Of a stretch of 64,000 nucleotides of DNA, positions 3,654 to 60,338 are shown in pieces (positions within the stretch are counted from its first letter, which is position 1; the number at the start of each line of letters is the position of its first letter). The position numbers and the translations under genes are program-made. Source of the DNA: Isoetes taiwanensis. Its lineage: Eukaryota; Streptophyta; Lycopodiopsida; Isoetales; Isoetaceae. The DNA lies in assembly GCA_021234155.1 (NCBI GenBank), contig JAJEKV010000002.1, positions 15,475,428 through 15,539,427 on the forward strand, read 5' to 3'. The notes beneath the pieces were generated by a model. That model did not search any database. It saw nothing but the letters and a program-made list of their open reading frames with translations, and was not told the DNA's origin.

Positions 3654-4160
3654 CTAACCTCCTGGCAAGTCGGCCTCGACTAAGCCGGAGACGACTCGCC
3701 CATCAAACTCCTTCATGAATTCTGAGTATTGTTTCTCCAAATCCTGCTTCAATACCCATGTCGCGTCTTCCACGGGCAAGTGTTTCCACTTGACCAAATA
3801 CTGGAGGAATTGAGACCTCCTAGTCTTCTTGAATGACTTATCAAGAAGCAATTCAGGCACAATTTCAACTTGCTCTTCTGTCATTTCCAACAAGGTTGGA
3901 GTATCCAAAACCTCATCAGGGTTAGGGTCGTGCCTTTTTAATAAACTCACATGGAAGACCTTGTGGACTTTAAGGTGCGCCGGGAGATCCAACTTGTAGG
4001 CTCTCCAAGATCTTGAACGGACCGGCCCACCTAGGGGTGAGCTTCTTGTAATTTCCAATCCGAAGTTTAGCTTGCTTCACCTTGATCTTCAACCATACCT
4101 TGTCGCCCACCTTGAACTCCCTTACGGTCTTGTGCCTGTCGGCTACACTCTTCTGCCAAC
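3654..4160 (-). pseudogene. Integrase C-terminus and chromodomain
   Basis: The minus strand gives the basic integrase tail and the classic LPAHLKVHKVFHVSLLKRH linker. A chromodomain of about 45 residues follows (PELLLDKS, then FLQYLVKWKHLP, then DATWVLKQDL), ending at a stop at 3654. In chromoviruses this domain binds modified histones or heterochromatin and steers integration. A frame change near 4000 separates it from the upstream integrase segment. The aromatic/VKW core that contacts the histone tail is recognisable, but the protein cannot be made in one piece. Confidence 0.85.
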
Positions 4161-4856: not shown

Positions 4857-6047
4857 TCAGAAATAGCTACTTCGAATCTTGAAATACGTCTTCATAAATC
4901 CTGCGTGCTCGACTATTGGGCTGTTGTGTGTGTCATGAAGAATTAACTTCCTTACTCCTGACGATTCGGGCACACACAACTTATCTTTATGGTACGAGAG
5001 GTTGCCTTCCTTCCTATAATGTCTGAAGGCCTCTCGTTCCTTATCTGTTCTAGCCTCCTTAGAGAGGCTTGCCCATACCTCCTTGAAATCATCATCAGAT
5101 GGCAATGTCTCCTCAATTTTCTTACCAAACTCACTCGAAAGAGTTGATATAGCATTACAATGCGTTCTCGTCTCGAATGGTCTCCTAGAGAGGGCATCTG
5201 CAACAACATTAAGCTTGCCGGGCTTATATACTATGTCGAAATCATATTCCTCAAGGAATTCCATCCACCTCCTTTGCCTTAGGTTGAGGAGTGGTTGGAT
5301 GAAAAGATATTGAAGGCTCTGGTGATCAGTATCTAACTGAGACTTCCTCCCCAGCAAATAATGCCTCCAAATCCTTAGTGCCCTGACAATGGCTAATAAC
5401 TCTTGATCATGGGTTGGATAGCGTTGCTCCGCATCGCACATCTTCTTCGAGTCGTAGGCGACTACCCTTCCTTCTTGCATCAAAACTGCACCTGTTGCTA
5501 TCTTGCTCGCATCCGTGGCCACTAGCTTATCTTTGCTCGGATCTGGAAAGACGAGGATTGGAGCTGTCGTTAGAGCCTCTTTGAGCTTTTCAAAGGAGGC
5601 TTGGACATTCTCAAGCCAAAACTTTGCCCAATCCTTTATCTTGTTGCTCTTGGTGAGGTCCGATAAGGGGGACGCCCACCTAGCGAAGTCCTTTACGAAC
5701 TTCCTATAGTATCCTGCCAGACCGAGAAAACTTCTCACTTCTGCCACGTTCCTTGGAGCTGGCCAATCAACTATTGCTTCAATCTTTGACGGATCTATAG
5801 AAATCCCTTCAGTTGTTACCACGTGCCCCAAATACTCCACTCGACCTGTTGCAAAGTGGCATTTGGAGAGCTTCCCATATAACCGATGCCGTCTCAACTT
5901 CTCCAACACTCTTCTCAAATGCTGACAATGTTCTTCAATGGACTTGCTGTAGACTAAGATGTCGTCGAAGAATACAATGACAAACTCGTCCAAGAACTCC
6001 CTGAAGAACTCGACGCATGAATGTTGCCGGGGCATTCGATAAGCCAA
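4857..6047 (-). pseudogene. Reverse transcriptase C-part, RNase H and integrase zinc finger start
   Basis: One open frame of 396 codons starts inside RT with the FFDD catalytic box ([14 protein letters not shown]). It continues through the connection ([10 protein letters not shown]) into RNase H, with ATDAS, the HDQELLAI Glu, TDHQSL and VADALSRR Asp residues all present. It ends in the first histidines of the integrase zinc finger. A stop replaces a Trp codon just before the integrase core. The frame does not join the upstream RT half without a frameshift near 6020. Confidence 0.9.
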
Positions 6048-7187
6048 AAGGCATTACTGTAAACTCGAAGTGCCCGTACCGCGTTCTGAAGGCGATCTTA
6101 TGGATATCTTCTTCCTTTATCCTTATTTGGTGGTAACCTGACCTTAGAGCATAGTTATTCTTCATCGTCTGCTTGTTAAGCTGGCGATAGTCCACACACA
6201 TTCTTAGGCTCCCGTCTTTCTTCATGATGAAGAGTATGGGTGCCCCAAAGGGGGGCACACTTGCTCTTATAAATCCAAGGTCAAGCAATTCCTGCAGCTG
6301 CTTCTTGAGCTCTATCAACTCTGGAGTGCTCATTCTGTAAGGTGCCTTGCTGGTAGGCTTAGCATCTGGAGCTAATGTGATTTCACACTCTACACCCCTA
6401 TAAGGTGGTAGCTGACGGATTTCATCCGGAAAAACATCATTGAACTCCCTAATGAGCCTTGCTACCGGCTTGGGCAACTGATTCCCCTTTTGGTCACTTC
6501 CCTTCTCTTTACTTGGTTCAATTGCCTCTAACCTCAGAATGTAATCCACCTTATTTCTTACTATACTTTTTCTTAGCTGCTTCATAGAAATGCGCTGCAT
6601 AGGAGAAGCTACCTTCTTACCTTTTACTATGAATCTGTTGCCGTCCGGCGCCGTCATGGAAATCTCATTGCACTCACAGTCAATCATCGCTTTCGCTGGC
6701 TTTAGAAACTCCATTCCTACTATAAGATCATACTTTCCAATATCCATGACTTCTGCCCCCATCGGCCACTTGCTTCCACTAAGGTCTATGTCAAACGCGA
6801 TCCTCCTCCCCTTAGTGTGCCGAATGGCACCACTTGCCATGCTAATTGGTCTTGGCTTTGACTTCAAGACCTTGCTCTTCATTAGGGCAGCAAGCCTAGG
6901 AGAGGCAAAGTTATGAGAGCTACCTGTATCTATCAAGACTAGGTATGGACTGCTATCTATAATTCCCTCAGTCGAGATGATTGTGGACTGATTTTCAACA
7001 TCACCTGACTCAATAACTGCGCAGATTTTGCACTCACCTTCAATAAAATCTTGGCCTTCTTGCTGGTCGTCATCTTCGTCATCACTTCGGTTGGAGATTC
7101 CCAATCTGCAAGTTCTGCCAAGGCTGCCTGCATGACGAATGGACAGTTGTGTGTTCTGTGCCCTGGCTGAAAGCACCTAAACCACAA
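6015..7187 (-). pseudogene. Zinc knuckle, aspartic protease and RT N-terminal half
   Basis: Reading leftward: an incomplete zinc knuckle ([12 protein letters not shown] near 7160, lacking its first Cys), an aspartic protease with the [10 protein letters not shown] active site (near 6930), the linker, and RT fingers with KAPYRMS and [15 protein letters not shown]. Then NNYA joins [10 protein letters not shown] directly at about 6145-6150. About 20 residues, including the catalytic Asp of RT motif A, have been deleted without breaking the frame. The palm motif [12 protein letters not shown] follows before a frameshift near 6015. This copy therefore cannot encode active RT. Confidence 0.9.
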
Positions 7188-7356: not shown

Positions 7357-8390
7357 TCATTGCCCTGCCCGTCTCTTACCTTTGAAGGGATGCTTGTTTA
7401 CTGCCACTGGAGTTCTTGGGGCTTCTTCCAAACTTAAGGCCTTGTCCTCGGCCTCCCCGACTGTTTTTGGGTTAATTGCTCGAACTAACCTCTTGATGTT
7501 ACTGTTGAGCCCTTCAATGTAACCCTCGACCGCTTGTCTCTCTGTGATCCTGGGCACATTGAGTCTTAACCTCATAAATTCCTCTGTGTATCTGGCTACT
7601 GATAGGTTCCCCTGGTCTAGTCTATAGAATTGCTGGATCTGCTTGCTAGTGTGCGATCTCGGCACGTAATATTTGCGGAAGGCCTTACTGAAGGTCTTGA
7701 ATCTGCAGTTGTTCCATCTCAACTTATTAGACTTAGCATACCCTTTCCACCAAATCCTGGCTGGTCCTATTAGATTGGCTGTTGTAACCTTGCCTATGTC
7801 TTTGTCTTTCATGCCATAAGAATTGCCAAGCCACGTCTCTGCTTCCATGCCTGACCTGTCTTTACCTGAAAACTGACCAAGCTTCCTCGTCTTCCAAACA
7901 TTACTCATGGCACTATCCACTTTCTTCTGATAATCATCTGCCTTCCTGTTCTTTTTCCTATCCTGTGATGCATCTGACTCGCTCTCGGAGCTGCTACCAT
8001 TCTGGCTGTCAAAGATATCTGATACGCTAGAGCTGGATGGTGTTGGACTCTTTCTGCTTCTCCTTTTTCTCTTCATGTCTCTGACATTTCCTTGATTCTC
8101 TTCCCCTTCTGGCTGTGGGGCCTCATCAATGCCTTGCGCAGGAGGTGGAGGTGGTGGTGGAGGTCCGTATTCCTGAGCATTCATCAATAGGGTTCCCCAC
8201 TGAAGTAGGTTTTACATCTGGTTTCTCATCTGCGTGAGCCTTGCATTCACTGTCTCCACCGTCATTTCATCATTGTTGTCGTCTTGTTCTCGCCCAAACA
8301 AGTTTCTAGGTACCCAATGGTGCTTCCGGCCCTGGCCTTGGGACCCTGAGCCGATGTTCCTTGCTGCAAGTATTGGTCATCAATGCTTGT
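7357..8390 (-). pseudogene. gag (capsid/nucleocapsid) gene
   Basis: The 276-codon frame from 8187 has a proline run, a Ser/Arg-rich stretch and a typical retrotransposon gag core (GPARIWWKGYAK, FKTFSKAFRKYYVPR, YTEEFMRLRLNVP). Gag forms the particle that packages element RNA. Recognisable coding sequence extends upstream to about 8390, interrupted by a TAA near 8211, so the original start lay further right. A frame break near 7357 separates it from the zinc knuckle. From 8391 to 8596 there is only an AT-rich spacer. Confidence 0.85.
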
Positions 8391-8596: not shown

Positions 8597-9766
8597 TCAT
8601 CTTCGGTGCTCCTTCATCGATTTGAAGAAGTTCTTGACATCCCTGAGTCGAAGTCCTTTGCCGACATTCCGCAAGATATTTCTAGAAGATCCTCCTTCAA
8701 GTGCTCGGGCCATTTGAGGTGCAGGGAGTTCGGGTGCCGTTGCCGCCACTACTATCAATGTTGCGTCTCGGAGGTGGCCCCTGGCGAAGTCGAGGCAATG
8801 GAGTGCCACGGATCTCTTAAAGAGAATGATATGATCCGTTATGAGATTCAGCTTGGCGTGCTGCCCAAAGCCAGAGAGTGCTATGAGGAGTGCCACCGAC
8901 TCTTCTCCTCGTGGGCTGAACTCCCTGTGAAAAACTATCATATGCCCTTGGCTGAGGACTGGAAGATAGTACTGGAGTGCCTTACCCTTTCCTATGGCCT
9001 TCGAACTTGTGCCCTTTCTCCGAGCTGCTTCGCCGTAGACGTCTAATACCAAGAGGTCTTCATGGTCCCTCCACATGGTAGTTGCGCTCTCTAGGTTGAT
9101 GCTACTGGATGCCTCCCGCATACTCCTGGAACGAACTGTTTGGCTAGAGCTTGGGCCTCTTCTTGGTTTGTACAATCTGCTTTGTATTTCTTGAAACTCC
9201 TCCTCTGGGATGATTGGTTCCTGTTGACGATACATCTCCCTTATCTGCTCATAGGCTGCTATATCTGACATTGTCTCCCTGGCGTAAGAGTGTCGCTCTG
9301 CTAGCTCCCTTGGGATTTCTTGATAGGAGTAGTTGATGAAGTCATTTTGCTGCTCCTTTGCCATCAAGCCTAAGAGCTCGTCGATTCTAAGCCCTTCTTC
9401 TTGGCAGTAAGGAAGGTTGAGGATGTTATTCGCCAAGATGTACTCCTCTCCATCGATGACTATTGGCGATAGGGCTGTGATGATGATTGGTGGTTCGTAG
9501 GCCCGCCTGATTTGATCATCATGCCTGGCTATTCGCCTCTCCATCCTCATCGCCTCTCTGCTCTCCCATCCTGGGTTTTCTTCCCCTAGCTGCTCGTAGT
9601 CTTGCTCGATTTGCAGTGCTGGTGTCCCTGATGTTAAGCCATGATACATGTACTCCGAGGACTCGATCTCGTGAATATGGCGTTGCTCCCTTCGAGTGTC
9701 GAGTGGTGCTAGATCCAAAGGCTGAATTGAGGACTCCCCCACCTTGTTGATTGCCTTATACTGCAT
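8597..9766 (-). CDS. Unrecognised 389-codon ORF inside the retrotransposon
   Basis: I do not recognise this protein. The first 200 residues are acidic and rich in Glu, Tyr and Ile, with predicted helices (for example IDELLGLMAKEQQNDFINYS). The middle is Ser/Arg-rich and the end is basic. It has no zinc knuckle, membrane segment or known catalytic motif. It reads in the same direction as gag and lies directly upstream of it, separated by about 200 AT-rich bases. A long open frame in an otherwise broken element is notable. It could be an accessory protein of the retrotransposon or part of a nested element, and chance openness of decayed sequence is also possible. Confidence 0.4.
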   Translation of the reverse strand: MQYKAINKVGESSIQPLDLAPLDTRREQRHIHEIESSEYMYHGLTSGTPALQIEQDYEQLGEENPGWESREAMRMERRIARHDDQIRRAYEPPIIITALSPIVIDGEEYILANNILNLPYCQEEGLRIDELLGLMAKEQQNDFINYSYQEIPRELAERHSYARETMSDIAAYEQIREMYRQQEPIIPEEEFQEIQSRLYKPRRGPSSSQTVRSRSMREASSSINLESATTMWRDHEDLLVLDVYGEAARRKGTSSKAIGKGKALQYYLPVLSQGHMIVFHREFSPRGEESVALLIALSGFGQHAKLNLITDHIILFKRSVALHCLDFARGHLRDATLIVVAATAPELPAPQMARALEGGSSRNILRNVGKGLRLRDVKNFFKSMKEHRR

Positions 9767-9890: not shown

Positions 9891-10514
9891 TTAGCTAAGC
9901 GAATCTAGGGATACCCATTTCCCTCCCCTAGGCGGCAAGCTAACTTCCCAGGGTAGGATCTGCTGATCATATTGGCAAATGATGTCGGTATAGAAGGGTG
10001 TCCTGGTCAAGGTTGCATGGAGATCAAGGAGATGGTCGAACACATGGAAGGCCTCTTCAGCAGGAAAATCATGGATATGGTTAGCAGCATCATACCATCG
10101 GACAAAACTATTGGGCGCCATTGAGCAGAGATAGGTGTAGAAAATGGCTTGGAAAGATTGATGGAAGCTTGGAAAATCGCCTAAGATGACAAGAGCAATT
10201 CTGGTGAAGGGAAAATGGCAAATGAGGCCCCTTTTATAGACTATGGTCTGCCTCGAGTTCCGTGCACAAGGGTTCTTGATGGAACAGACTTTTGTTCTAA
10301 GGCTATGGATGTCCAAATGAGCTACCATGAAGTGCAAATCTAAGGAAAACAAGGCAAGAAACACTACATGGTAGTTTGTTGAGTCAAATTTGGCCAATCC
10401 AGGCCAAAATGGGTCAATCCGGGTCGATTCGCGCGAATAGGCTCTGCGTTGCGAACGCAGGGCGATTTGGCGCGGATCGTCCCTGTTTGGCCGATTTGGG
10501 AGGTGATTAGACAT
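9891..10514 (-). CDS. Unrecognised 207-codon ORF upstream of the 389-codon ORF
   Basis: The frame begins inside the first 201-bp repeat unit and ends at 9891. The first third is low-complexity and probably not coding. The last 100 residues (from ILGDFPSFHQSF to LPPRGGKWV) have a more protein-like composition with many aromatics. I cannot assign a family. With the next ORF downstream, it may be two pieces of one broken accessory gene; stops lie between them (9767-9890). Confidence 0.3.
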   Translation of the reverse strand: MSNHLPNRPNRDDPRQIALRSQRRAYSRESTRIDPFWPGLAKFDSTNYHVVFLALFSLDLHFMVAHLDIHSLRTKVCSIKNPCARNSRQTIVYKRGLICHFPFTRIALVILGDFPSFHQSFQAIFYTYLCSMAPNSFVRWYDAANHIHDFPAEEAFHVFDHLLDLHATLTRTPFYTDIICQYDQQILPWEVSLPPRGGKWVSLDSLS

Positions 10515-10900
10515 TTCTAGGGGTTGTAAGATGCTAACATGCCTAATTGGATCAATTCTAACCTAGCTAGCAACTTATTTCAAGCAAAATGGACATCTAG
10601 AAGTGCCAAATTGAGGTAACCGGGTCGATTCGCGCGAATAGGCTCTGCGTCGCGAACGCAGACGCATTCGGCGCGGATCGTCCCGGTTTGGCCAGAACTT
10701 GCCATTTTTAGATGATTCTTTGCCGAAATTGACTTCTAAACTGGGTTTCTAGGCAAATTCTAAGCAATTTACTATCTTTTAGCACAAATTTTCGATCAAT
10801 TTTGTCCCAAATCCTGGTACCCGGCTGGATTCGCGCGAATGCGCTCTGCGTCGCGAACGCAGGTCGATTTGGCGCGGATCGACCCGATTTCGCCAAATTT
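10421..10900. repeat. Three units of a 201-bp GC-rich repeat
   Basis: The word GTCGATTCGCGCGAAT followed by GCTCTGCGT and CGCGAACGCAG recurs starting at 10421, 10622 and (slightly changed) 10823, exactly 201 bases apart each time. Each unit contains a CpG-rich core of about 75 bases that could fold (TCGCGCGA, GGCGCGGATCG) and a more variable AT-richer part. It lies between the histone-like gene and the downstream ORFs. Function is unknown. Confidence 0.8.
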
Positions 10901-10920
10901 TGAGCCAAGATTGATTTTTT

Positions 10921-11110: not shown

Positions 11111-12256
11111 TTATGGTCTCTCTTTGCGGATTCTCCGCGCCAAGTGCAGGTCCTTCGGCATGACGGTTACCCGCTTGGCGTGGATGGCGCAAAGATTTCC
11201 TTCTTCAAAGAGTTGAATCAGCTCTGCCTCTGCTGCCTCCTGCAGGGCCCCGGTGGTTAGGGGTGTGACCCTATAGTCCGTTCGAAACTCCTGCATCACC
11301 TCAGGGCTGCAGCTCAAGCGGCGCCTTTCGGTCGGGGAGATTGGTGCCTTTGTTGAAAGTGCCTAATCTCCCTAAATACTCGAGCGTGCCATGAGTTAGG
11401 TCCGTGGTGGACCTTCTTCGGCTTCTCTGGTGGCGGCGGCTTGGGCTGGTCCTTCGGCCGCCCTCCCTTCCTGCGAACACCGCGTTACGCTTGCCGGTAC
11501 CAATCATTATTACCTGCGTCCGGCCAGCGGGGTACTCTTTTACCCTTCGCCCGAATTCGATCGCCGGGCGTGAATTCTGTTTCTCCCACCTTACGCTTCT
11601 TCACTACCTTAGCTGGCTTGGGCCACTTAGGGTAGGGTGGACGTGCGTTGGGGTCTGAAGGTTCCCCAATGTCCTGCTCGCCCTCCTCCTCTTCTGTCTC
11701 CTCTTCATCTTCCCCATCTCCTTCCTCGTCCTCCTCCCGCTGTTCTTCTTCCTTGCGTGGGCGAGGTTCTTCGATAGTCACGGTCCCCCGTGGCTTATCC
11801 CTCCTCGCCTTCTTCCTCCTCTCCTTCTCCTTCTGCTCCCTCTCCCTTTTCTTCCTGGCCGCCGTCTCTTCGGGCCACTCTGTTACTTTCTCCTTCCCCT
11901 TCTTCTTTTTGCTTGAAGAAGGGGCTGCCTGCTGGTCCTGCTGGGGCGGTTGCTACTGCTGGGTCTGCTGCTACTGCTCTTCCTGGTCTCCCTCCTCCTG
12001 GTGCTCGTCCTCGTCGGATAGAGGGCCAAGGTGACGGGTCTCGTCGGTTCACTGCGTCTCCACCGACGACGAGCTGCTCTGGGGCTCCTCCTATGAGGCG
12101 TGGAAGGTCTCATTGGTCGAGGAAGACGACTCCTCCTCCTGCCCTCGGCCGGAGGTGCTCTGGTATCTGCTTTCCATGTCCACCAGCTGCTGCTGCTGCC
12201 ATCGAAGGGGAGCTCCTTGGGCCAACTTTCCTCATGGTTTATTTGGTCCTTGCCAT
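11111..12256 (-). pseudogene. Chimeric histone H3-like gene with long charged insert
   Basis: The gene starts at 12256 with MARTK, a TAA where H3 has Gln5, then TMRK: the H3 tail start. The C-terminal half (about 11440-11111) follows the H3 core: [13 protein letters not shown] (alpha-N), [42 protein letters not shown] and LARRIRKER before the stop at 11111. Loop 1 has canonical length, so it resembles ordinary H3 more than CENH3. Between tail and core lie roughly 240 residues of insert, rich in Gln, Lys and Glu, including a run of about 30 mostly acidic residues (11780-11690). Two frameshifts (near 12200 and 11365) and several stops, mostly explicable as CAA/CAG to TAA/TAG, disable it. It points the same way as gag and is the first gene after the primer-binding site. 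I infer a captured host histone gene; a nested insertion is the alternative. Confidence 0.75.
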
Positions 12257-12800: not shown

Positions 12801-12812
12801 GCTCTGATACCA
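12801..12812 (-). promoter_or_regulatory. Primer-binding site for initiator tRNA-Met
   Basis: In element orientation the sequence TGGTATCAGAGC lies one base after the end of the 5' LTR. It is complementary to the 3' end of plant initiator tRNA-Met, the usual primer for minus-strand synthesis. Confidence 0.95.
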
Positions 12813-12813
12813 T

Positions 12814-15011
12814 TGTGACGCTCCCTGCTAAATATACGGCGCCCGACCATACACTCCACAGGAAATCCCCCATCCAGTCCTTCGACCGCACGGGCCCTCC
12901 GTCTATCCCGCACTCTGGGGTGACTCTAGTGCGGGAAGAGGACACGAAAGTATCTTGCGCGCCCTTCCCCTATGGGCTCCTATCACATCGGAAGCATAAA
13001 CAACGTCAGAACTAGCAATACAACACATCATGCTACCTCGAAGGGTAGCCCATCCACATATCTATAACCATAGAGAAGATAATCATATGCCATAAAACAT
13101 GAGAGCTCCTACCATTAGGGATTTTTTGAGATCATAAAAGGGCCTTCTAAGAACTGCTGACTAAGCTATATGAACTACCAATCAGAAAACAGAACTGGTA
13201 ATCCAGTCAGCAAAACAGTTATAACTAACTCACTGGATCACATTTTCTAGCATAAGTGTTGATAGGAAAGTCCAAATGAGCTCTTGTTTGGTGCAATAGA
13301 TAGATCTCATTGAGATCTTTCCAACCTTGGGTGGTTTGTATATCTTTTAACCCCGTAGGATAGTAAAAAATCGTAAAAACCAAATTTTTTGGAGTTTTGA
13401 CAATCATAAGTGGTTAAAATATGTGCAAAGCACCTAAGGTTGGAAAGATCTCAATGAGATCTATCTATTGCGCTAAACGAGAGCTCATTTGGACTTTTCT
13501 ATCAATAGTTATGCTAGAAAATGTGATCCAGTGAGTTAGTTATAACAGTTTTGCTGACTGGACCCGTCAGGCTCTGATTTCTGATTGGTAGTTCATTTAT
13601 CTTCATTTGGCTTAGTTGGCATGTTTTGAAGGCCCTTTTTTAATCTCAAAAAAACCCTAATGCCATGGCTCCGACTCATAAGGAAGATGATCGACGAGCT
13701 AGGCCTCAAGATAGAGCAGACCGAGTCATAACAATGGCGGGGCTGGCTATAGACAATAGCTAGGGTTGACCACTCCATCCGCCCCTCCTGTGCATACTTT
13801 GCAGAATGAGCTAGATCGGGCTTTGGCATGACTCTAGCCTTCTGGATATGCAATCCCATGGTATCACCCAGCGGGACTACTCCAGGTTGCATCTCCCCGG
13901 TCCGTCGAGGCAGGAAGGGTTGCATCTCCCCTTCCTGGGGTCTAGAGGTTCCACGGGCGGCTAGAGAATCGTGGCGACACACGATTCTTACCCAACTTAA
14001 CCCCCCAAAACAGGAGCCAAGCCAACACTTGCAACTCCTGAGAGGCAGGGCGACACCATTGCCTCAGGAGGTGTCGGACCCATGCCCGGCCCACACAAAG
14101 TGACCGACCATAGGCCTAGCCTGCTATGGGATCCCCAGTAGCCACGCTCAGCAGAGATCCCCCATCCATATTGCCTCTAGTCCCGTTGTATAGTGCTGAG
14201 TCGCATCATAGCCCCAATAGCCCGGTGGGCTCTTATGCACAGGCCGCATATAATAGAAACTAAGGGATCTAACTAGGAGCATACTACGTACTAGCTACTA
14301 GGTCTCTATCCCCCTTCCCAATACAAGAGGAGCAAACATGATCAACCAACATCACATAACATCATATCATGATAATCATAATAAGAACATCTTAACCTAA
14401 TCAATGTACATATCTAACTTACAGTTAGGGTTCCTTGATTAGGGTTCAAGATGTTGAATAAGGGTTCTAGGATGGCTCTACTCTAGATACGAAATACTAA
14501 CCCATATGGAGTGCTAACTTCCAGATGATCTACCAAGAGCACTACTCTACATACCTGCTCCAGAAGCACTCCCTCCCAATCCTGGCGTCTCCATGGTCTT
14601 CGAATTGGTCGAAGCTGCACTTGCTCCAAGATCAAATCCACACTCTGGGGGCTGCTGCACTGGCCTATGCCACGGCAAACGGTGCTCGAAACAGAGTTTC
14701 GAGTGCGTAGATGAGTCTCAGGGTGCTAGGGTCAGGAAAAGAGGTCTAGGGTTAGGGTTTGGGCTAATATAAGATAGGGTCCACGTAGGATGCCACGTGG
14801 CACCAATGGGGTAGGGCCGTGTGGCGGTTGCCCAATAGGATAAGGCCATGTGGAAATGGGCCTTATCCTAAGGTTATCTAAGTTAAGCATTTAACTTAGA
14901 TGTGCACCCATTGCCACTTCCTAAGGTATACAAGGCTACAAGAGTAGACTTGTATAGTGACGGGTCCAGGAATATACGTATTTATAGCGTATATTCCCCT
15001 GGAACGTCACA
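12814..15011 (-). repeat. 5' LTR of the chromovirus, enlarged by a foldback element
   Basis: It is bounded by TGTGACG (12814) and CGTCACA (15011), a short inverted repeat typical of LTR ends, with the primer-binding site at the inner edge. Its length is 2198 bases, or 1648 without the inserted foldback element at 13113-13662. It matches the 3' LTR over about 1.3 kb. Related but diverged sequence occurs in the solo LTR at 30776-32357 (for example a shared CCACTCCATCCGCC block). A TATAAATA-like motif within a hairpin lies near 14970-14996. Confidence 0.92.
13113..13662. mobile_element. 550-bp foldback element (MITE-like) inside the LTR
   Basis: Two arms of about 220-230 bases (13113-13333 and 13431-13662) are inverted repeats of each other with few mismatches, around a loop of about 100 bases. 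The ends are CATTAGGG and CCCTAATG. Comparison with the other LTR (CTACCCATGG at about 1549) shows that removing exactly these 550 bases restores the uninterrupted sequence. The insertion left no obvious target-site duplication. It has no coding capacity. Its superfamily cannot be set from the termini. It inserted after the retrotransposon, because the partner LTR lacks it. Confidence 0.9.
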
Positions 15012-15174: not shown

Positions 15175-15725
15175 CAAATGCCCTCTCTAGCTCAGTCCAA
15201 CTCTCCTTGTTGGTGGTATATGCGAAAGAGCTCTACAAGATCATCAATGTCTTTCTAGGTAGCTTTCTTGCATGAGGCACTACAAGGGATCATCGTTGTT
15301 CAACGACGTCGAGGTATCGTTAAACGACGTGTCGACGTCGTTAATAACGTCGTTATTGCGACGTAGTTCAACGACGTCTAAACGTCGTTCAACGATGTCG
15401 TGACGTCGTTCAACGACGTCTAAACGTAGTTCAACGACGTCGTGACGTAGTTCAACGACGTCTAAATGTCGAAATAATTGTCGTAATCGACACGTCGTTT
15501 AATGACGCCTCGACGTCGTTGAACAACGACGATCCCTTGTAGTGAGGTCAGCATCAATTCCACTATTCCATCCCAAGAACGAGAACGAGAAGTATACAAT
15601 TTTAGCTTTCTCTGAGGATTAGACAAACAATGATCTTTTCTAGCATCTACATCAAATTTCTCTTGCAATTTTCCAAGATGGATCTTAATGTCCCGGCTAC
15701 GTGGATTTGATGTCTCGAATCAAGC
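15175..15725 (-). pseudogene. Minus-strand coding remnant split by a MITE
   Basis: On the minus strand, 15725-15548 reads KLQEKFDVDARKDHCLSN then SRSWDGIVELMLTS. After the MITE the same line continues with a KDIDDLVELFRIYHQQGELD-like segment with one stop. The family is unknown. The CACTA-type MITE at 15278-15544 interrupts it. Confidence 0.35.
15278..15544. mobile_element. CACTA-type MITE, 267 bp
   Basis: It starts CACTACAAGGGATC and ends with the inverted copy GATCCCTTGTAGTG. Terminal inverted repeats extend over about 50 bases. It is flanked by a 3-bp target duplication AGG (15275-15277 and 15545-15547). The CACTA end and 3-bp duplication are diagnostic of the En/Spm superfamily. The interior is a dense array of ACGTCG/CGACGT words built from tandem repeats of about 45 bases, so most of it can self-pair. 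No coding capacity. Confidence 0.93.
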
Positions 15726-25284: not shown

Positions 25285-27203
25285 ATGGTGGCTATGGTGT
25301 TCGCTCCCGACTATGGTTTCGCCACCATCACTGGATTTGGACCAATAAGTAATGGGAATTTCAGATCTACACCTATTCCGCCATCTATTAGCCTACCCAG
25401 GGCAGGCGTGGCCGGGGTTCGAATGGCAATTTCTACAGACCAAAAATTGGTCACCCAGAAGTCGGAAGAAGTATTTCTAGCTGCGAAGGTTTGTTTTCTT
25501 ACTCCATTAAAGGTTCCATTTCAAGTTTTTGTCTCATTTGTTAAGTGTAGATTCGTCATTGTTACCTAAGCAATTGCGTAGTATTTGCTTAACTTAATGG
25601 CAGGTGAATTTAATTTCGGAACCTAACATAATCACTTGCTGCTTTTCTATGATTGGAGTTAAAACAAGCTATCAGGATCGACATGATAATGTCTGTGATA
25701 GTTCATTTCTCTGTCTCAAGGAAGTTAAATATTTATGTTCTCCTAGATTTAACTGTTGACTACTGAACAACTAATAGACTTGGGATAATAGACTTATTGA
25801 CTCTTACATTATGTTAGCATACAATTAATAAATCAGAAAGCATTGTCACTAAGTCCTCAAATGTTATTTTTATTCCAGGAGCTCATGCCTGGAGGAGTTA
25901 ATTCACCAGTGAGAGCTTTTAAATCAGTTGGTGGTCAACCTATTATATTCGACCGGGTAAAAGGATCAAAAGCATGGGACATTGATGGCAATGAGTATAT
26001 AGACTATGTTGGTAGTTGGGGCCCTGCAATAATTGGGCATGCAGATGATGTGGTATGCCAGCTTAACCTTTGTATTCTTTTCCTCCAGGGCATTTGAATT
26101 TGTAATAAATTATTCTCCATGGATGCTTGCTTCAGGTAAATTCAGCACTTATAGATGCCCTACAAAAAGGCACAAGTTTTGGTGCTCCATGTGTTTTAGA
26201 GAACAAGCTTGCAAGGATGGTGATTGATGCTGTACCTAGTATTGAGATGGTTCGTTTCGTCAATTCTGGAACAGAGGCCTGCATGGGCATGCTTCGCCTT
26301 GCACGAGCATATACTGGCCGGGAAAAAATTATCAAATTTGAAGGTTGCTATCATGGACATGCAGACTCCTTTTTGGTTAAGGCTGGAAGTGGTGTGCTGA
26401 CCTTGGGGCTTCCAGACTCACCAGGAGTTCCTAAAGCAGCAACAGCTAGCACTCTTACTGCACCCTATAATGACCTTGATGCAGTAAAACAGCTGTTTGC
26501 AGAATATAAGGGAGAAATAGCTGCTGTCATCTTAGAGCCTGTTGTTGGAAACTCCGGGTTTATTGTTCCAAGAATAGAATTCTTGGAGGGGTTAAGAGAG
26601 GTCACATCCTCTAATGATACACTCCTTGTGTTTGATGAAGTTATGACAGGATTTAGATTATCTTATGGTGGTGCACAACAATACTTTGGTATTACCCCTG
26701 ATCTAACAACTTTGGGAAAGATCATTGGAGGAGGACTTCCAGTTGGTGCATATGGAGGAAGAAGAAAGATCATGGAAATGGTGGCGCCAGCAGGTCCCAT
26801 GTATCAAGCAGGCACACTAAGTGGTAATCCATTAGCTATGACAGCTGGAATCCAAACACTGGAACGGTTGCAAAAACCTGGAGTATATGAGTACTTGGAT
26901 AAGATTACAGGAAAGCTGATCCAGGGTCTTCTGGATGCAGCCAGAACTGCTGGACATGAAGTTTGTGGGGGACACATAAGTGGGATGTTTGGTTTCTTTT
27001 TTACCAAAGGTCCAGTTTATAGTTTTGACGATGCTAAAAAGAGCGACACAGCTAAGTTTGCAAGATTTCACAGGGGCATGCTTGAAGAAGGGGTATATTT
27101 TGCTCCATCCCAATATGAGGCTGGATTTACTAGCTTGGCTCATAGTGAAGAAGACATTGAGTTCACAATAGCAGCAGCCAGAAGAGTTTTTGCAAGCATC
27201 TAA
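25285..27203 (+). CDS. GSA: Glutamate-1-semialdehyde 2,1-aminomutase, chloroplastic
   Basis: This PLP enzyme turns glutamate-1-semialdehyde into 5-aminolevulinate in plastids, the committed supply step for chlorophyll and heme. Three exons fit: 25285-25488, 25879-26052 and 26136-27203, with GT-AG introns of 390 and 83 bases, all phase 0, giving 481 residues (family about 470). Residues 1 to about 47 are a Ser/Pro/Gly-rich, acid-poor transit peptide. MAISTDQKL and TQKSEEVF start the mature part. [43 protein letters not shown] (Asp293) and the PLP lysine in TLGKIIGGG (Lys321) are intact. The C-terminal [18 protein letters not shown] motif is present. The first in-frame ATG after the G-box was chosen. 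No defect is visible; it is very likely functional. Confidence 0.96.
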
Positions 27204-35796: not shown

Positions 35797-36052
35797 TAGA
35801 TAGGTATTTTGACCTACATTAGGGGAGGAAAAAACCCTTCACATTTGACAGCCCACATTTGACAGCCTATTACGTGTACAACTTTTATACCACCTACAAG
35901 CTTCATTGTATCTACTAATCCATATATGTCCATAGGTAATGTTTAAGAGCTGTTGATTAAGGCAATTTATTGTTCAGTTGACTTGATACACCATCGTAGT
36001 ACAAAAACTTGTTTAGATAGATAGGTATTTTGACCTATATTAGGGGAGGAAA
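35797..36052 (+). promoter_or_regulatory. Duplicated promoter segment of glycosyltransferase copy A
   Basis: The 36-base segment GATAGATAGGTATTTTGACC...GGGGAGGAAAAA occurs at 35797 and again at 36017, 220 bases apart. Copy B has it once (48763-48795). A TATAAATA motif lies at 35679-35686, and in copy B at 48631-48638, about 190 bases before that gene's ATG. Confidence 0.6.
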
Positions 36053-36092
36053 AAGCACAATTCAGCACCAAAGTTTGGGCTGCAAAGGGCAA

Positions 36093-37517
36093 ATGGAAGA
36101 ATCGAGGCGCCTGCATCTTCTTATGTTTCCATTTTTGCTGCCTAGCCACATTAATGGGTTGCTTGAATTTGCCAGAAATTTGGCCTCTCAAGGATGCCGT
36201 ATTACGTTCATCCAGCCACACGAGGATTTTCAAGAGCAGAACCCCAGCCTAGAGCATGGGCAGATCCGATTTGTGAGCCTCCCAGATACAATCAAATCAG
36301 ATGTTTGTGCAACCGGATCTAATGGAAACCAAGGCATAGCCACTATCATGGATGCCCTGCTGCTCATGCAACTTCCCTTTGAAGATCTGCTGCAGGAGCT
36401 CATTCAAACTGAAAATCCTGTTAATTATATCGTCTCAGATTTTATGGTAGTATGGATGGCGAACTCTGTTCAGAAATTTAAGCTTCCCAGTGCTCAATTT
36501 TGGGCCGGATCTGCTGCCAGTCTGCTATTTATGTTTAGAATCCCCGAAATTATGAAGCAAGTTCGCTTCCCCATCACTGCAGGTATTTCTATAGCTTTTC
36601 TCTTTTGTTTTGCGCCATTTTTTGAATTGGATTTTTAAAATTTTGAATTGGGTTCTACATGCAAGATGATCTAAGACAGAATGAAGAGGCAATCAAGTGT
36701 GCAGAAGGAATTCTTCCCCTAAAATTGGAAGATATTCCTCTCACGTATCATGGAGATCCTCCCTTTCCGGGCTACTATGAGAAAATACACAGAGATACTA
36801 TAGATGCTTTTCAAGCAGCAGATTGGATTCTAATAAACACGTTTGAAGAATTAGAAAAAGATGTGCTGATTTCGTTCCAAAAAGAGGCAAAAAACGTTCT
36901 TCCAATAGGACCAATTTTAGCAATACAAAAGACGCCATCAGATCGCGAAGAAGAGGCAAGCAGATGCATGGAATGGTTAGAAAATCAAGCCGATAATTCG
37001 GTGCTATATGTTGCATTTGGAACAGTGGCAGATTTATCAGAGGATAAAATACAGGGCCTTGCAACAGAGCTAGAATTGAGTGGTCTTTGCTTTGGGGCCA
37101 AATATAAACAAGTCGTTGCCCCAAAAGACTAGGCAAAAATTAATGGACAATGGATTAGTGGTTACCTGGGCTCCCCAACAAGAAGTTCTACTCCATAGGG
37201 CTATAGGGGGTTTTTTGACACATTGCGGATGGAACTCTCTTCTCGAAGGCGTCGCCGCGGGTGTTCCCATGTTGGGGTGGCCTTGCCTATTTGAGCAAAA
37301 CTTAAATTGCAAATACATGGTGGATGAATGGGGTATTGGATTGAAGGTCGCTATGGGAAGCGAGGGCGAGTTCCAAGTTGGGAAAGTGAGAGATGCCATC
37401 AGGACCTTGCTTGTGGAAGATGAAGGTAAGAAGATGAGACTGAGGGCCCAGGTATTGAAAGAAAATGCCATGCCTCGACCTTGTTTGGAGCATCTCCTTA
37501 AGGTCAAACAAATTTAA
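36093..37517 (+). pseudogene. UDP-glycosyltransferase copy A, disabled by an 11-bp deletion
   Basis: Exon 1 (36093-36582) and the start of exon 2 (from 36666, after an 83-base intron) match the intact copy at 48821-50256 almost base for base. After codon ELSG (near 37082) eleven bases present in copy B are missing. The frame shifts and ends at a TAG at 37130. The PSPG donor-binding box (WAPQQEVLLHRAIGGF, THCGWNS) and the C-terminus survive only in another frame (37136-37517). The truncated product would lack the UDP-sugar site. The downstream part is still well preserved, so the loss looks recent. Confidence 0.9.
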
Positions 37518-48820: not shown

Positions 48821-50256
48821 ATGGAAGAATCGAGGCGCCTTCATCTTCTTATATTTCCATTTTTGCTGCCTAGCCACGTTAATGGGTTGCTTGAATTTGC
48901 CAGAAATTTGGCCTCTCAAGGATGCCGTATTACGTTCATCCAGCCACACGAGGATTTTCAAAGGCAGAACCCCAGCCTAGAGCATGGGCAGATCCAATTT
49001 GTGAGCCTCCCAAACACAATCAAATCAGATGTTTGTGCTACCGGATCTAAAGGAAACCAAGGCATAGCCAGTATCATGGATGCCATGCTGCTCATGCAAC
49101 TTCCCTTTGAAGAGCTGCTGCAGGAGCTCATTCAAACTGAAAATCCTGTTAATTATATCGTCTCAGATCTTATGGTAGTATGGATGGCGAACTCTGTTCA
49201 GAAATTTAAGCTTCCCAGTGCTCAATTTTGGGCCGGATCTGCTGCCAGTCTGCTATTTATGTCTAAAATCCCCGAAATTATGAAGCAAGTTCGCTTCCCC
49301 ATCACTGCAGGTATTTCTATAACTTTTCTCTTTCGTTTTGCGCCATTTTTTGAATTGGATTTATAAAATTTTGAATTGGGTTCTACATGTAAGATGATCT
49401 AAGACAGAATGAAGAGGCAATCAAGTGTGCAGAAGGATTTCTTCCCCTAAAATTAGAAGATATTCCTCTCACGTACCATGGAGATCCCCCCTTTCCGGGC
49501 TACTATGAGAAAATACACAGAGATACTATAGATGCTTTTCAAGCAGCAGATTGGATTCTAATAAACACGTTTGAAGAATTAGAAAAAGATGTGTTGATTT
49601 CGTTCCAAAAAGAGGCAAAAAACGTTCTTCCAATAGGACCAATTTTAGCAATACAAAAGACGCCATCAGATCGCGAAGAAGAGGCAAGCAGATGCATGGA
49701 ATGGTTAGAAAATCAAGCCGATAATTCGGTGCTATATGTTGCATTTGGAACAGTGGCAGATTTATCAGAGGATAAGATAAAGGGGCTTGCAACAGAGCTA
49801 GAATTGAGTGGACAACCATTTCTCTTTGCTTTGGGGCCAAATATAAACAAGTCGTTGCCCCAAAAGACTAGGCAAAAATTAATGGACAATGGATTAGTGG
49901 TTAACTGGGCTCCCCAACAAGAAGTTCTACACCATAGGGCTATAGGGGGTTTTTTGACACATTGCGGATGGAACTCTCTTCTCGAAGGCGTCGCCGCGGG
50001 TGTTCCCATGTTGGGGTGGCCTTGCTTGTTTGAGCAAAACTTGAACTGCAAATACATGGTGGATGAATGGGGTATTGGATTGAAGGTCGCTATGGGAAGC
50101 GAGGGCGAGTTCCAAGTTGGGAAAGTGAGAGATGCCATCAGGACCTTGCTTGTGGAAGAAGAAGGTAAGAAGATGAGACTGAGGGCCCAAGTATTGAAAG
50201 AAAATGCCACGCCTCGACCTTGTTTGGAGCATCTCCTTAAGGTCAAACAAATTTAA
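48821..50256 (+). CDS. UDP-glycosyltransferase (family 1, PSPG box), intact copy
   Basis: This cytosolic enzyme moves a sugar from a UDP donor to a small acceptor such as a flavonoid, terpenoid or hormone; the acceptor cannot be read from sequence. Exons 48821-49310 and 49394-50256 (GT-AG intron of 83 bases, phase 1) give 450 residues, normal for the family. The catalytic His19 (FLLPSHVNGLLEF) and the supporting Asp116 (YIVSDLM) are present. The 44-residue PSPG donor box runs from Trp335 (WAPQQEVLHHRAIGGF, THCGWNS, GVPMLGWPCLFEQ), ending in Gln, which usually goes with glucose transfer. The intron contains in-frame stops, so splicing is required. A TATAAATA motif lies about 190 bases upstream. 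It is the only functional member of the duplicated pair. Confidence 0.93.
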
Positions 50257-58100: not shown

Positions 58101-60180
58101 ATGAAAGCTATTCCAGCACATTGTGCAACCTTGGTGCAGTCAGTCTCGCTGCACAAGACAGACAGATACAATCGCTACTTGTGGATGTGCATGCAGCATG
58201 ACAGTGGCAGCATCCTCTTTGTAGCAGCATGCTACTTTCCACATGCCGAGAGCAACTTCTATAACACTCATTCGGGTTTGGATAGATTGGAGCCCTATGT
58301 CGATCTATATGATGACATAGAGCAGCACAAACGGTTGGGCAAGATCATGTTGCTTGGAGACTTTAATGCACGCACAGAAGCCGAGCAGGTCCCAAAAGTT
58401 GAGCCCCTGACGGAGGATGTCTTGCAGTTGAACCCCGCAGAGGCGGCTTGGCCAAGGATATTAGATGACAACCATATTTCACGCTATGGCAGGCAGTTAT
58501 TGTTGTTGGGTAGTATCTTTGACCTGGTTATTTGTAATGGGTTGGCACAATAGCCGTCTTCCAGCCGTTGCACTTGTAGACAGGAGAACCAAGGGGGCGG
58601 CTCCAGTGTGGTGGATTACGTGATGGCAGAGGAATAGGATCTGCACCTGGTTACCCATTTTTGCATTGGAATAAACACTCGAGACGAGGAAGTGAACTCA
58701 GACCACCAGCCCCTTTTCTTGCATATAAATTAGCAGGCTCCCCTTGCATCCATTGCCTCAACACTCCAAGTGCCCCGGCTGCACCTGGATTACGACTGTG
58801 CAGAGACCTATGCCCGGATGCTTGAGCATGACCTGGAGGGACTACTGCAGCTTCCCACACTTTAGCAACAATCTGTCCAGCTGGCTCACTTGCTTCTAAT
58901 AGCCTCTGAAAGATGCTTTTGGAGAAGCCACACATAGAGGACCTCGGCCCGCTACCACCTTCCCTCGCAACAGGTGGTTCGATGATGAGTGTCGGGAGAT
59001 CAAATGCGGACTCCGGCAAGTCACTGATAGCACCTTCCGCCCACAGGCCATCAGTCAATATCGCTCTTTCAACAAGAACAAGAAAGCCGGATACCTTGTA
59101 GAGCACCAGCAACAGATGTTCGGTCTCCTGGATCGGCAGCCCAAGACATTTTGAAGAAAGGTATTGAGCAAGGCTATACAACCCATAGGGAACATCACCT
59201 CGGAGTAATGGGTACAGTACTTGCAATAGCTTTATGATTTGCTCGGGGGCGGGGCAACAGTGCCTCCACAGATGGGCTGGTCATCACAGAGGGGAATGTC
59301 TGGGCCTGCAACGCCTAGCTAATGGAAAGGCAGCAGATTTAGATGGCATGCAGGCAGAACTTCTGAAGTGGGTTGGGCCTCCAATGGTGCCTGTCCTCAC
59401 AGGACTATTCAATAAAGCATTGCAAGAAGGCTTCCCTCTGCAGTGGACCACTAGTAGGGTTGTACCCATATACAAGGCAGGTGACCCTCAATGCCCAGTC
59501 AACTATTGCACTATTATGTTCAGCTCTCTCTTTGCAAAATTGTTGGCTGGCATCCTTGAGTAGCGGCTGACAATATGGGTAGAAGAGACAGAGTTGCGTT
59601 CTCTGACATAAGCAGGCTTCCAGCCCGGGCATTCCACCATTGACCATATTTTCACTCTGCGCACGGTGATTGAAGATAGCAGGAATCGCCGACAAAACCT
59701 GTACCGTTGTTTCGTGGATTTTACAAAGGCTTTTGACACAGTGCCTCGGGATAAGTTATGGGACAGACTGCGGCAGCTAGGGACTCCGTTGACTTGCAGA
59801 CCGCAATATACAGGCTATACGAGGCATGCTCAGGACGTCTCACATCATCAGAACAGCCGATAGTCAGTAGTATTGGAGTACGTCAGGGTTGCCCCCTCTG
59901 CCCCACACTCTTTGGCCTATACATTGATCAGCTTGAAGATTGGCTTTCTAAGCATGGAGGTGCGGGCGCCCATCTCATGCACCACCTAATTCGGCAACTC
60001 ATATATGCTGATGATGTAGACCTCTTGACCTATACTCCAGAGGACATGCAACATCACTTGGATGCTCTTGATACTTTTTGCCAGTTCACTGGCATACAAG
60101 TTAACTTGGCCAAAACTAGGGTGTTGTTAGTTTCGTCATCCTGTTATGCACTAGCACCTCTAGTGATAACCAACACATCA
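58101..60180 (+). pseudogene. Non-LTR retrotransposon: AP-endonuclease and reverse transcriptase
   Basis: The first frame (58101-58553) is the endonuclease with LGDFNARTE. A later broken frame keeps VVDYVMA and the catalytic SDHQPL (near 58700). RT begins with NGKAADLDGMQAELLKW (near 59310), VVPIYKAGDP, AGFQPGHSTIDHI, the motif A line YRCFVDFTKAFDTVPRDKLW (near 59715), GVRQGCPLCPTLFGLYID and IYADDVDLL (near 60005), ending near 60160. Endonuclease nicks the target and RT copies the RNA at the nick. Stops at several places and a frameshift near 59790 disable it. The motif style (FVDFTKAFDTV, GVRQGCPL) differs from the L1 element at 45184-46870, suggesting another LINE clade. Confidence 0.85.
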
Positions 60181-60338
60181 AAAGGGCGGATCCTTCAAGG
60201 AAATCGTTATCCAATGGGCCCCAACCTTTCTAGCTTTATCCCATACCCCACAGACCATATCAATTCCTCCCCTTCCTCGAGATGCTTGCCCTCAAGCATG
60301 TAGAACACACCAATGTTGCCACGAGGAATTGATACCTT

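Follow-up and report, generated by a model that had tools for sequence, protein, structure and literature searches.

A chromovirus in the genome of Isoetes taiwanensis carries a histone H3-like gene as the first gene after its primer-binding site, with a long insert between the start of the H3 tail and the H3 core. The copy in which the gene was noticed is broken; sister subfamilies carry the gene uninterrupted, at the same position and in many copies, with H3 cores that fall into a single clade and are under strong constraint.

The window element and its H3-like gene

The window, the whole 64,000-nt stretch of contig JAJEKV010000002.1 analysed here, holds a chromovirus, i.e. a Ty3 LTR element with a chromodomain, on the minus strand. 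Its 5′ LTR (12814–15011, −) has TG..CA ends and is enlarged by an internal inverted-repeat insertion. The 3′ LTR (1519–2811, −; matches cover 1519–2809 and the inner edge was extended to 2811 by eye) lacks part of its outer end, so the target duplication of this copy is unreadable. Aligned pieces of the two LTRs share 94.2% identity across 949 positions and 97.05% across 339; identity to the LTRs of sister elements is ~66–74% among the matches listed. The primer-binding site (PBS) TGGTATCAGAGC (12801–12812, −), presumably of the initiator-Met tRNA type, lies immediately after the LTR end.

From the PBS, the element runs in the order H3-like gene, ORF B, gag, protease–reverse transcriptase (RT), RT–RNase H–integrase and chromodomain. 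ORF B (8597–9766, −) is a divergent member of its family, recognized by profile (E = 2.4e-08 among six translated frames) and lacking a Pfam match; a possible upstream part (9891–10514, −) was assigned by resemblance judged by eye and has no profile match. Gag (7357–8187, −) matches the Ty3 capsid (PF19259, 9.8e-16). It is followed by the aspartyl protease and the start of RT (5935–7176, −; PF08284, PF00078), by the end of RT, RNase H and the start of integrase (4857–6047, −; H2C2, below the Pfam cut-off), and by the chromodomain at the C-terminal end of pol (3654–4058, −; PF00385, 2.8e-11), located in the same element as originally predicted. Pfam places gag, protease, RT, RNase H and integrase in Ty3 order in both the window and sister elements, with the rve core of one sister copy (L017) slightly under the cut-off (30.5 vs 32.6 bits).

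Codon 6 of the H3-like gene (12256–11111, −) is a stop, and two frameshifts disrupt its core. Its predicted tail start, MARTK-stop-TMRK, is present at 12256–12227 (−), where the ATG was taken as the gene start. With 8 of 10 residues identical to MARTKQTARK, it ranks top among 127,942 six-frame 10-mers of the window (runner-up, 6). Judged by alignment score the tail is weak (31; 60 shuffles gave a mean of 22.5 and a highest value of 32), and the identity count and the relatives described below are therefore used as evidence instead. The H3 core (11111–11454, −) extends from host H3 residue 27 to the C-terminus in more than one frame, with a stop. Frameshift-aware alignment to host H3 (residues 27–134; window 11454–11117) scored 229, against 30–41 for eight shuffles; 58 of 113 aligned positions are identical, with two frame changes along the way, and the uninterrupted C-terminal piece alone matches the Pfam Histone family (PF00125, 4.1e-19). 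The alignment score and the Pfam match bear out the conserved core that had been claimed, except that, besides the stop, two frameshifts interrupt it. Between tail and core lies the charged Q/E/K-rich insert (11455–12226, −), whose length is ~257 codons where an earlier figure was roughly 240 residues; it has no significant match to the N-terminal domain of ORF A, the corresponding frame of the sister subfamilies. As predicted, the gene is the first after the PBS and shares its strand with gag, with the correction that ORF B stands between them.

A DNA search of the genome with the window gene returned 1795 candidates, of which 40 were scored, the window itself among them (75–100% identity). 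Four of the other 39 (L067–L070) were read. They begin with MVRTKQTMRK, MARTKQTMRK, MARTKSTARK and MARTKSTARK, or M(A/V)RTK(Q/S)T(A/M)RK, and in L070 tail, insert and core all lie in one frame containing two stops; these starts and this single frame indicate that the tail–insert–core layout is real. Lysine is found at the H3 K4 register and at the K9 position in all five window-lineage copies read. No intact H3-like gene occurs among the four relatives read of the 39, nor in the window copy, and the five broken copies give a dN/dS of 0.108 over 62 codons. The lineage also has a divergent αN region and sits on a long branch inside the element clade, so that not every lineage need assemble normal nucleosomes.

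Further features of the window were recorded. An inverted repeat at 13202–13562 in the 5′ LTR (arms of 178 nt, 89% complementary), which is not in the 3′ LTR, is a MITE-like insertion. Between the H3-like gene and ORF B, a 99-nt repeat is present three times at a spacing of 201 bp (10402–10902), and each copy contains a short palindrome around GCGAACGC. Outside the 5′ LTR, a second inverted repeat (15278–15544; arms of 133 nt, 79% complementary, 1 nt apart) consists of ACGTCGTT-like repeats. The window also contains a class-III aminotransferase (26127–27203), a pair of similar UDP-glycosyltransferase-like genes (36030–37517 and 48821–50256, PF00201 in the second) and an RT fragment (59758–60303, PF00078) that is possibly LINE-like.

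ORF A in sister subfamilies

The genome (1,658,258,908 bases in 1110 contigs) was searched with the Pfam Histone model, which yielded 8705 first-look candidates, not a copy count because the model covers all core histones; 150 were scored. The top 15 reached 164.1–165.4 bits, and all eight of those read were canonical 136-aa H3. Host H3 genes (L001–L008) come in two forms at position 87, with T in three of eight and S in five. The remaining 135 matches scored 144.5–154.7 bits, and each of the 24 chosen for fetching, in two batches of 12, turned out to be an element ORF, which we named ORF A. A separate search with the N-terminal domain of ORF A alone (220 aa) gave 2859 candidates. Among the 150 scored, 108 had no internal stop, and for 41 of these the open frame measured 400 aa or more. 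H3 homology was found just downstream at 28 of 30 loci returned by this domain when full H3 served as query, and at one further locus (L045) when the core did; four of the 30 were copies already in the histone-ranked set.

Uninterrupted ORF A in the sister subfamilies is about 410–465 aa long. Sixteen of 19 distinct aligned sequences measure 430–464 aa, two 411 aa (L014, L034) and a truncated one, L018, 334 aa. The frame consists of a short start, a conserved domain, a Q/E-rich stretch, a K/R-rich basic linker and a near-complete C-terminal H3 core. The core matches PF00125 at 3.9e-39 to 2.8e-42 (three copies) and H3 chains in the PDB at 7.8e-50 at best; intact copies align across the whole H3 core, an H3-type histone fold with αN. 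Searches with the N-terminal domain found no Pfam match, no solved structure at E up to 1 in a profile search, and no confirmed case among 71 pattern matches in IMG/VR.

The start of ORF A varies by subfamily (MPRFKLT, MSRFKLT, METPKQV, MEEAKQV, MANTKSA, MANIKST, MARTKGTKS). The H3 K4 register is lysine in 43 of 44 readable starts, a count that does not represent independent cases because most are near relatives in one subfamily; in L039, the one without it, the start is altered, and five further loci have no visible start. In the layouts read, an insert several hundred residues long interrupts the H3 tail, which in its standard form runs for ~37 residues without a break. The L065 subfamily holds tail, insert and core within an uninterrupted 415-aa frame, and its member L066 has an LTR end and PBS upstream. 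Antisense open frames of 209–356 aa lie opposite ORF A in four copies (L016 3921–4610, L017 4185–4853, L019 4946–6016, L020 5333–5962), possibly as a side effect of its codon use. In L011, another short stretch matching H3 lies upstream of ORF A (1327–1452).

ORF A belongs to the retrotransposon. All 12 long stretches around it contain ORF A with its H3 core, 11 contain ORF B, 10 gag and 11 protease–RT, always on a single strand and in a constant order; gag and/or protease–RT followed ORF A on the same strand in 11 of the 12. A strict pattern placed an LTR end with a PBS within 2.6 kb upstream of the H3 core at 25 of 37 distinct H3-positive loci. Three copies compared at both ends have LTR pairs that are 92.0%, 96.7% and 93.7–96.9% identical, and two of them are flanked directly outside the LTRs by 5-bp target duplications (GTGGC, CAATC); the outer end of the third was not located. 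The occurrence in all 12 long stretches and the LTR–PBS count support histone capture by a retrotransposon, as originally proposed. The H3 segment is present in many genomic copies rather than at the window locus alone, and no ordinary host gene of this kind without gag was seen among the loci fetched. The expectation of multiple LTR-bounded elements with intact H3-insert ORFs at the same position holds for the sister subfamilies, not for the window lineage as far as its four relatives read of 39 go.

ORF B, up to about 460 aa, stands between ORF A and gag in L013, L018, L011 and others. It has no Pfam match, and a profile search of solved structures gave no match up to E = 1. The L017 copy lacks ORF B and measures about 11.2 kb, compared with 13.2 kb for the L013 copy.

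Origin and constraint of the element H3

An IQ-TREE analysis of 34 cores placed the element H3s, including that of the window, on one side and host, human and yeast H3 on the other (97/97). A 19-row tree that also took in other subfamilies and the four relatives of the window copy supported the element clade at 100/98, with nine of 29 element cores kept and a bootstrap that had not settled. Both trees were built without the H3.3 and CENH3 of I. taiwanensis. Most simply, the clade would reflect one capture of H3. The capture is old, as the synonymous distance between element and host H3 is saturated in all 19 comparisons.

Of 99 core columns, 63 equal the host residue in all of the 27 clean cores covering them, and columns 86, 87, 102, 105 and 107 differ from the host in 27 of 27. 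We take these five positions to lie in helix α2 of H3. A chaperone recognition site that decides the assembly route of H3 is described on α2 in a viral-histone review (PMC9145170). The location of these changes suggests that the ORF A protein would still be assembled, with an altered chaperone preference.

Selection was quantified as mean dN over mean dS (Nei–Gojobori). Across the 19 uninterrupted ORF A sequences, dN/dS was 0.042 in the H3 core (115 pairs), 0.152 in the N-terminal domain, 0.193 in the tail-like part and 0.373 in the linker. In the 12 long loci, the core had a value of 0.035 (29 pairs), the N-terminal domain 0.181 (23 pairs), ORF B 0.146 (10 pairs from 6 copies), gag 0.076 (6 pairs from 4 copies) and PR/RT 0.080 (15 pairs from 6 copies). 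These values come from different pair sets per region, rest on few copies for gag and PR/RT, and are lowered by the choice of the fetched non-canonical loci, long loci included, from matches ordered by histone score. One pair alone covers the core, the N-terminal domain, gag and PR/RT, with values of 0.021, 0.121, 0.056 and 0.065, respectively. Of 25 loci chosen by the N-terminal domain, 15 had clean cores, filtered for intactness only, and these gave 0.055 (105 pairs); with frameshifted and broken copies included, the core value was 0.255 (25 loci, 268 pairs). The H3 core is thus the most constrained part measured, at 0.035–0.055 in clean cores, and the dN/dS check proposed for intact copies came out as strong constraint. 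Because the core is held at least as tightly as RT, selection appears to act on the histone fold itself. These same clean-core values rule against a non-functional transduplicated fragment free of constraint.

Possible roles and known systems

We lean, by a narrow measure, towards a reading in which an old H3 capture, with its tail split by an insert, yields a protein that joins nucleosomes and alters the chromatin of the element or its landing sites. A chromovirus lineage would have captured a host H3 gene long ago, most simply once, and retained it in first position. The tail of H3 would have been split such that a short start with lysine at the K4 position stayed N-terminal, followed by a stretch of several hundred residues (the conserved domain, or the charged insert in the window lineage) and then by the rest of H3. 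We infer that ORF A would be translated, that its protein would pair with host H4, and that host chaperones would place it in nucleosomes in the nucleus, from which the inserted domain and the tail would be displayed. The displayed domain may change chromatin at copies of the element itself or at landing sites, and the altered chromatin could keep element copies expressed or attract an integrase with a chromodomain of the H3-tail-reading kind. ORF A would then be kept because its protein joins nucleosomes, and its strong conservation suggests that some of the chromatin on these elements is of their own making. Two papers describe interactions between histone marks and the chromodomains of elements of this kind (PMC9289625, PMC3350952). 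A bolder version, which we advance only tentatively, is that the lineage encodes a nucleosomal H3 variant paired with the chromodomain, and so both lays down and reads its own chromatin mark; if true, a self-made mark would control the insertion sites and the silencing of the element.

Constraint on the H3 fold leaves an alternative, in which the fold serves to bind DNA or RNA within particles. The H3-like protein would condense element RNA or cDNA in virus-like particles or the pre-integration complex, in the manner of a nucleocapsid, and both the location of ORF A between PBS and gag, co-oriented with gag, and the basic linker preceding the H3 core fit such a role. Simple nucleic-acid binding, however, hardly needs a core held at least as tightly as RT, with 63 of 99 columns unchanged, and gag-pol already has a zinc-knuckle match, weak and below the Pfam cut-off; we regard a particle role as unlikely.

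A decoy acting in trans seems less probable again. Here the protein would occupy H3 chaperones or histone-modifying enzymes and weaken host silencing, with no need of stable nucleosomes. It would agree with the rebuilt tail: in our alignment the sister subfamilies either lack the K27 position or have another residue there, and many sister copies have Arg at position 36 (Lys in L057, L059 and L062). Yet the core surfaces that we take to be DNA-facing are also kept, which a decoy would not need, and the window lineage keeps the K9-position lysine in five of five copies read.

That the host H3 fragment is a passive passenger, transduplicated and amplified without function like many fungal hAT copies (PMC6710886), is very improbable given the constraint on the H3 core. 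Many copies are indeed broken, among them the one in the window and all four of the relatives read from its lineage, but the low dN/dS, the saturated synonymous distance to the host, the uninterrupted ORFs in several subfamilies and the constant position in 12 of 12 long stretches all speak against it. Hardly credible is an ordinary host family of fused H3 proteins carried by elements by chance: canonical host H3 genes are multi-copy too (eight of eight fetched), but all 24 non-canonical matches fetched, of 135 listed, were ORF A, an LTR end and PBS lie upstream at 25 of 37 loci, and element H3 forms a separate clade.

A histone fold held by a retrotransposon at least as tightly as its own RT would represent a new way for transposable elements to handle chromatin. 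With this element, ideas on how transposable elements reach or evade heterochromatin become testable, and nature supplies an experiment on where the H3 tail can be opened and yet stay under selection. The element also places histone evolution in view outside the host's own gene set.

Captured histones in mobile genomes are already known; the layout, carrier and constraint of ORF A were not found described in the open-licence literature. No retrotransposon-encoded histone was found in that literature either, and an earlier description elsewhere is possible. The word 'histone' does not occur in the main text of the I. taiwanensis (PMC8566536) and I. sinensis (PMC10541799) papers, nor 'retrotransposon' in the viral-histone review (PMC9145170). 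In Dothideomycete fungi, a hAT DNA transposon captured histone H3 (PMC6710886). As in I. taiwanensis, a host H3 coding sequence is carried and multiplied by a transposable element, whereas the fungal carrier is a DNA transposon and the I. taiwanensis carrier an LTR retrotransposon. P. fijiensis has 784 hAT-H3 copies, 90% of them truncated, with RIP damage, and those of P. tritici-repentis were called putatively functional (PMC6710886). The I. taiwanensis element stands apart from fungal hAT-H3 by its full core, its long conserved ORF, the insert in its tail and the strong purifying selection on it.

An orchid Ty3/gypsy element with a captured AlkB RNA demethylase, reported in a survey of 121 angiosperm genomes and no lycophyte (PMC9289625), likewise belongs to a Ty3/gypsy lineage with an extra host-derived domain fixed in its own ORF; it differs from ORF A in the domain captured, and no histone domain is named in the part of that survey available to us. 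Single H3 genes occur in xenomavirus, Dishui Lake phycodnavirus, Sylvanvirus and other viruses, and their products are thought likely to join host nucleosomes (PMC9145170). They resemble ORF A in a near-host H3 fold carried by a mobile genome, in some cases with an N-terminal extension. Their carriers, however, are DNA viruses and the quoted extensions are 53 and 68 residues (PMC9145170), whereas ORF A has a retroelement as carrier, an insert of several hundred residues and many copies in the one genome analysed. The best functional analogue is the bracovirus histone H4, CpBV-H4, which enters host nucleosomes and, by way of its extended tail, alters gene expression (PMC5423620, PMC9145170). 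CpBV-H4 differs in being an H4, in its delivery by a polydnavirus to another animal and in a tail extension in place of a large insert; like ORF A, it is a captured histone with a modified tail.
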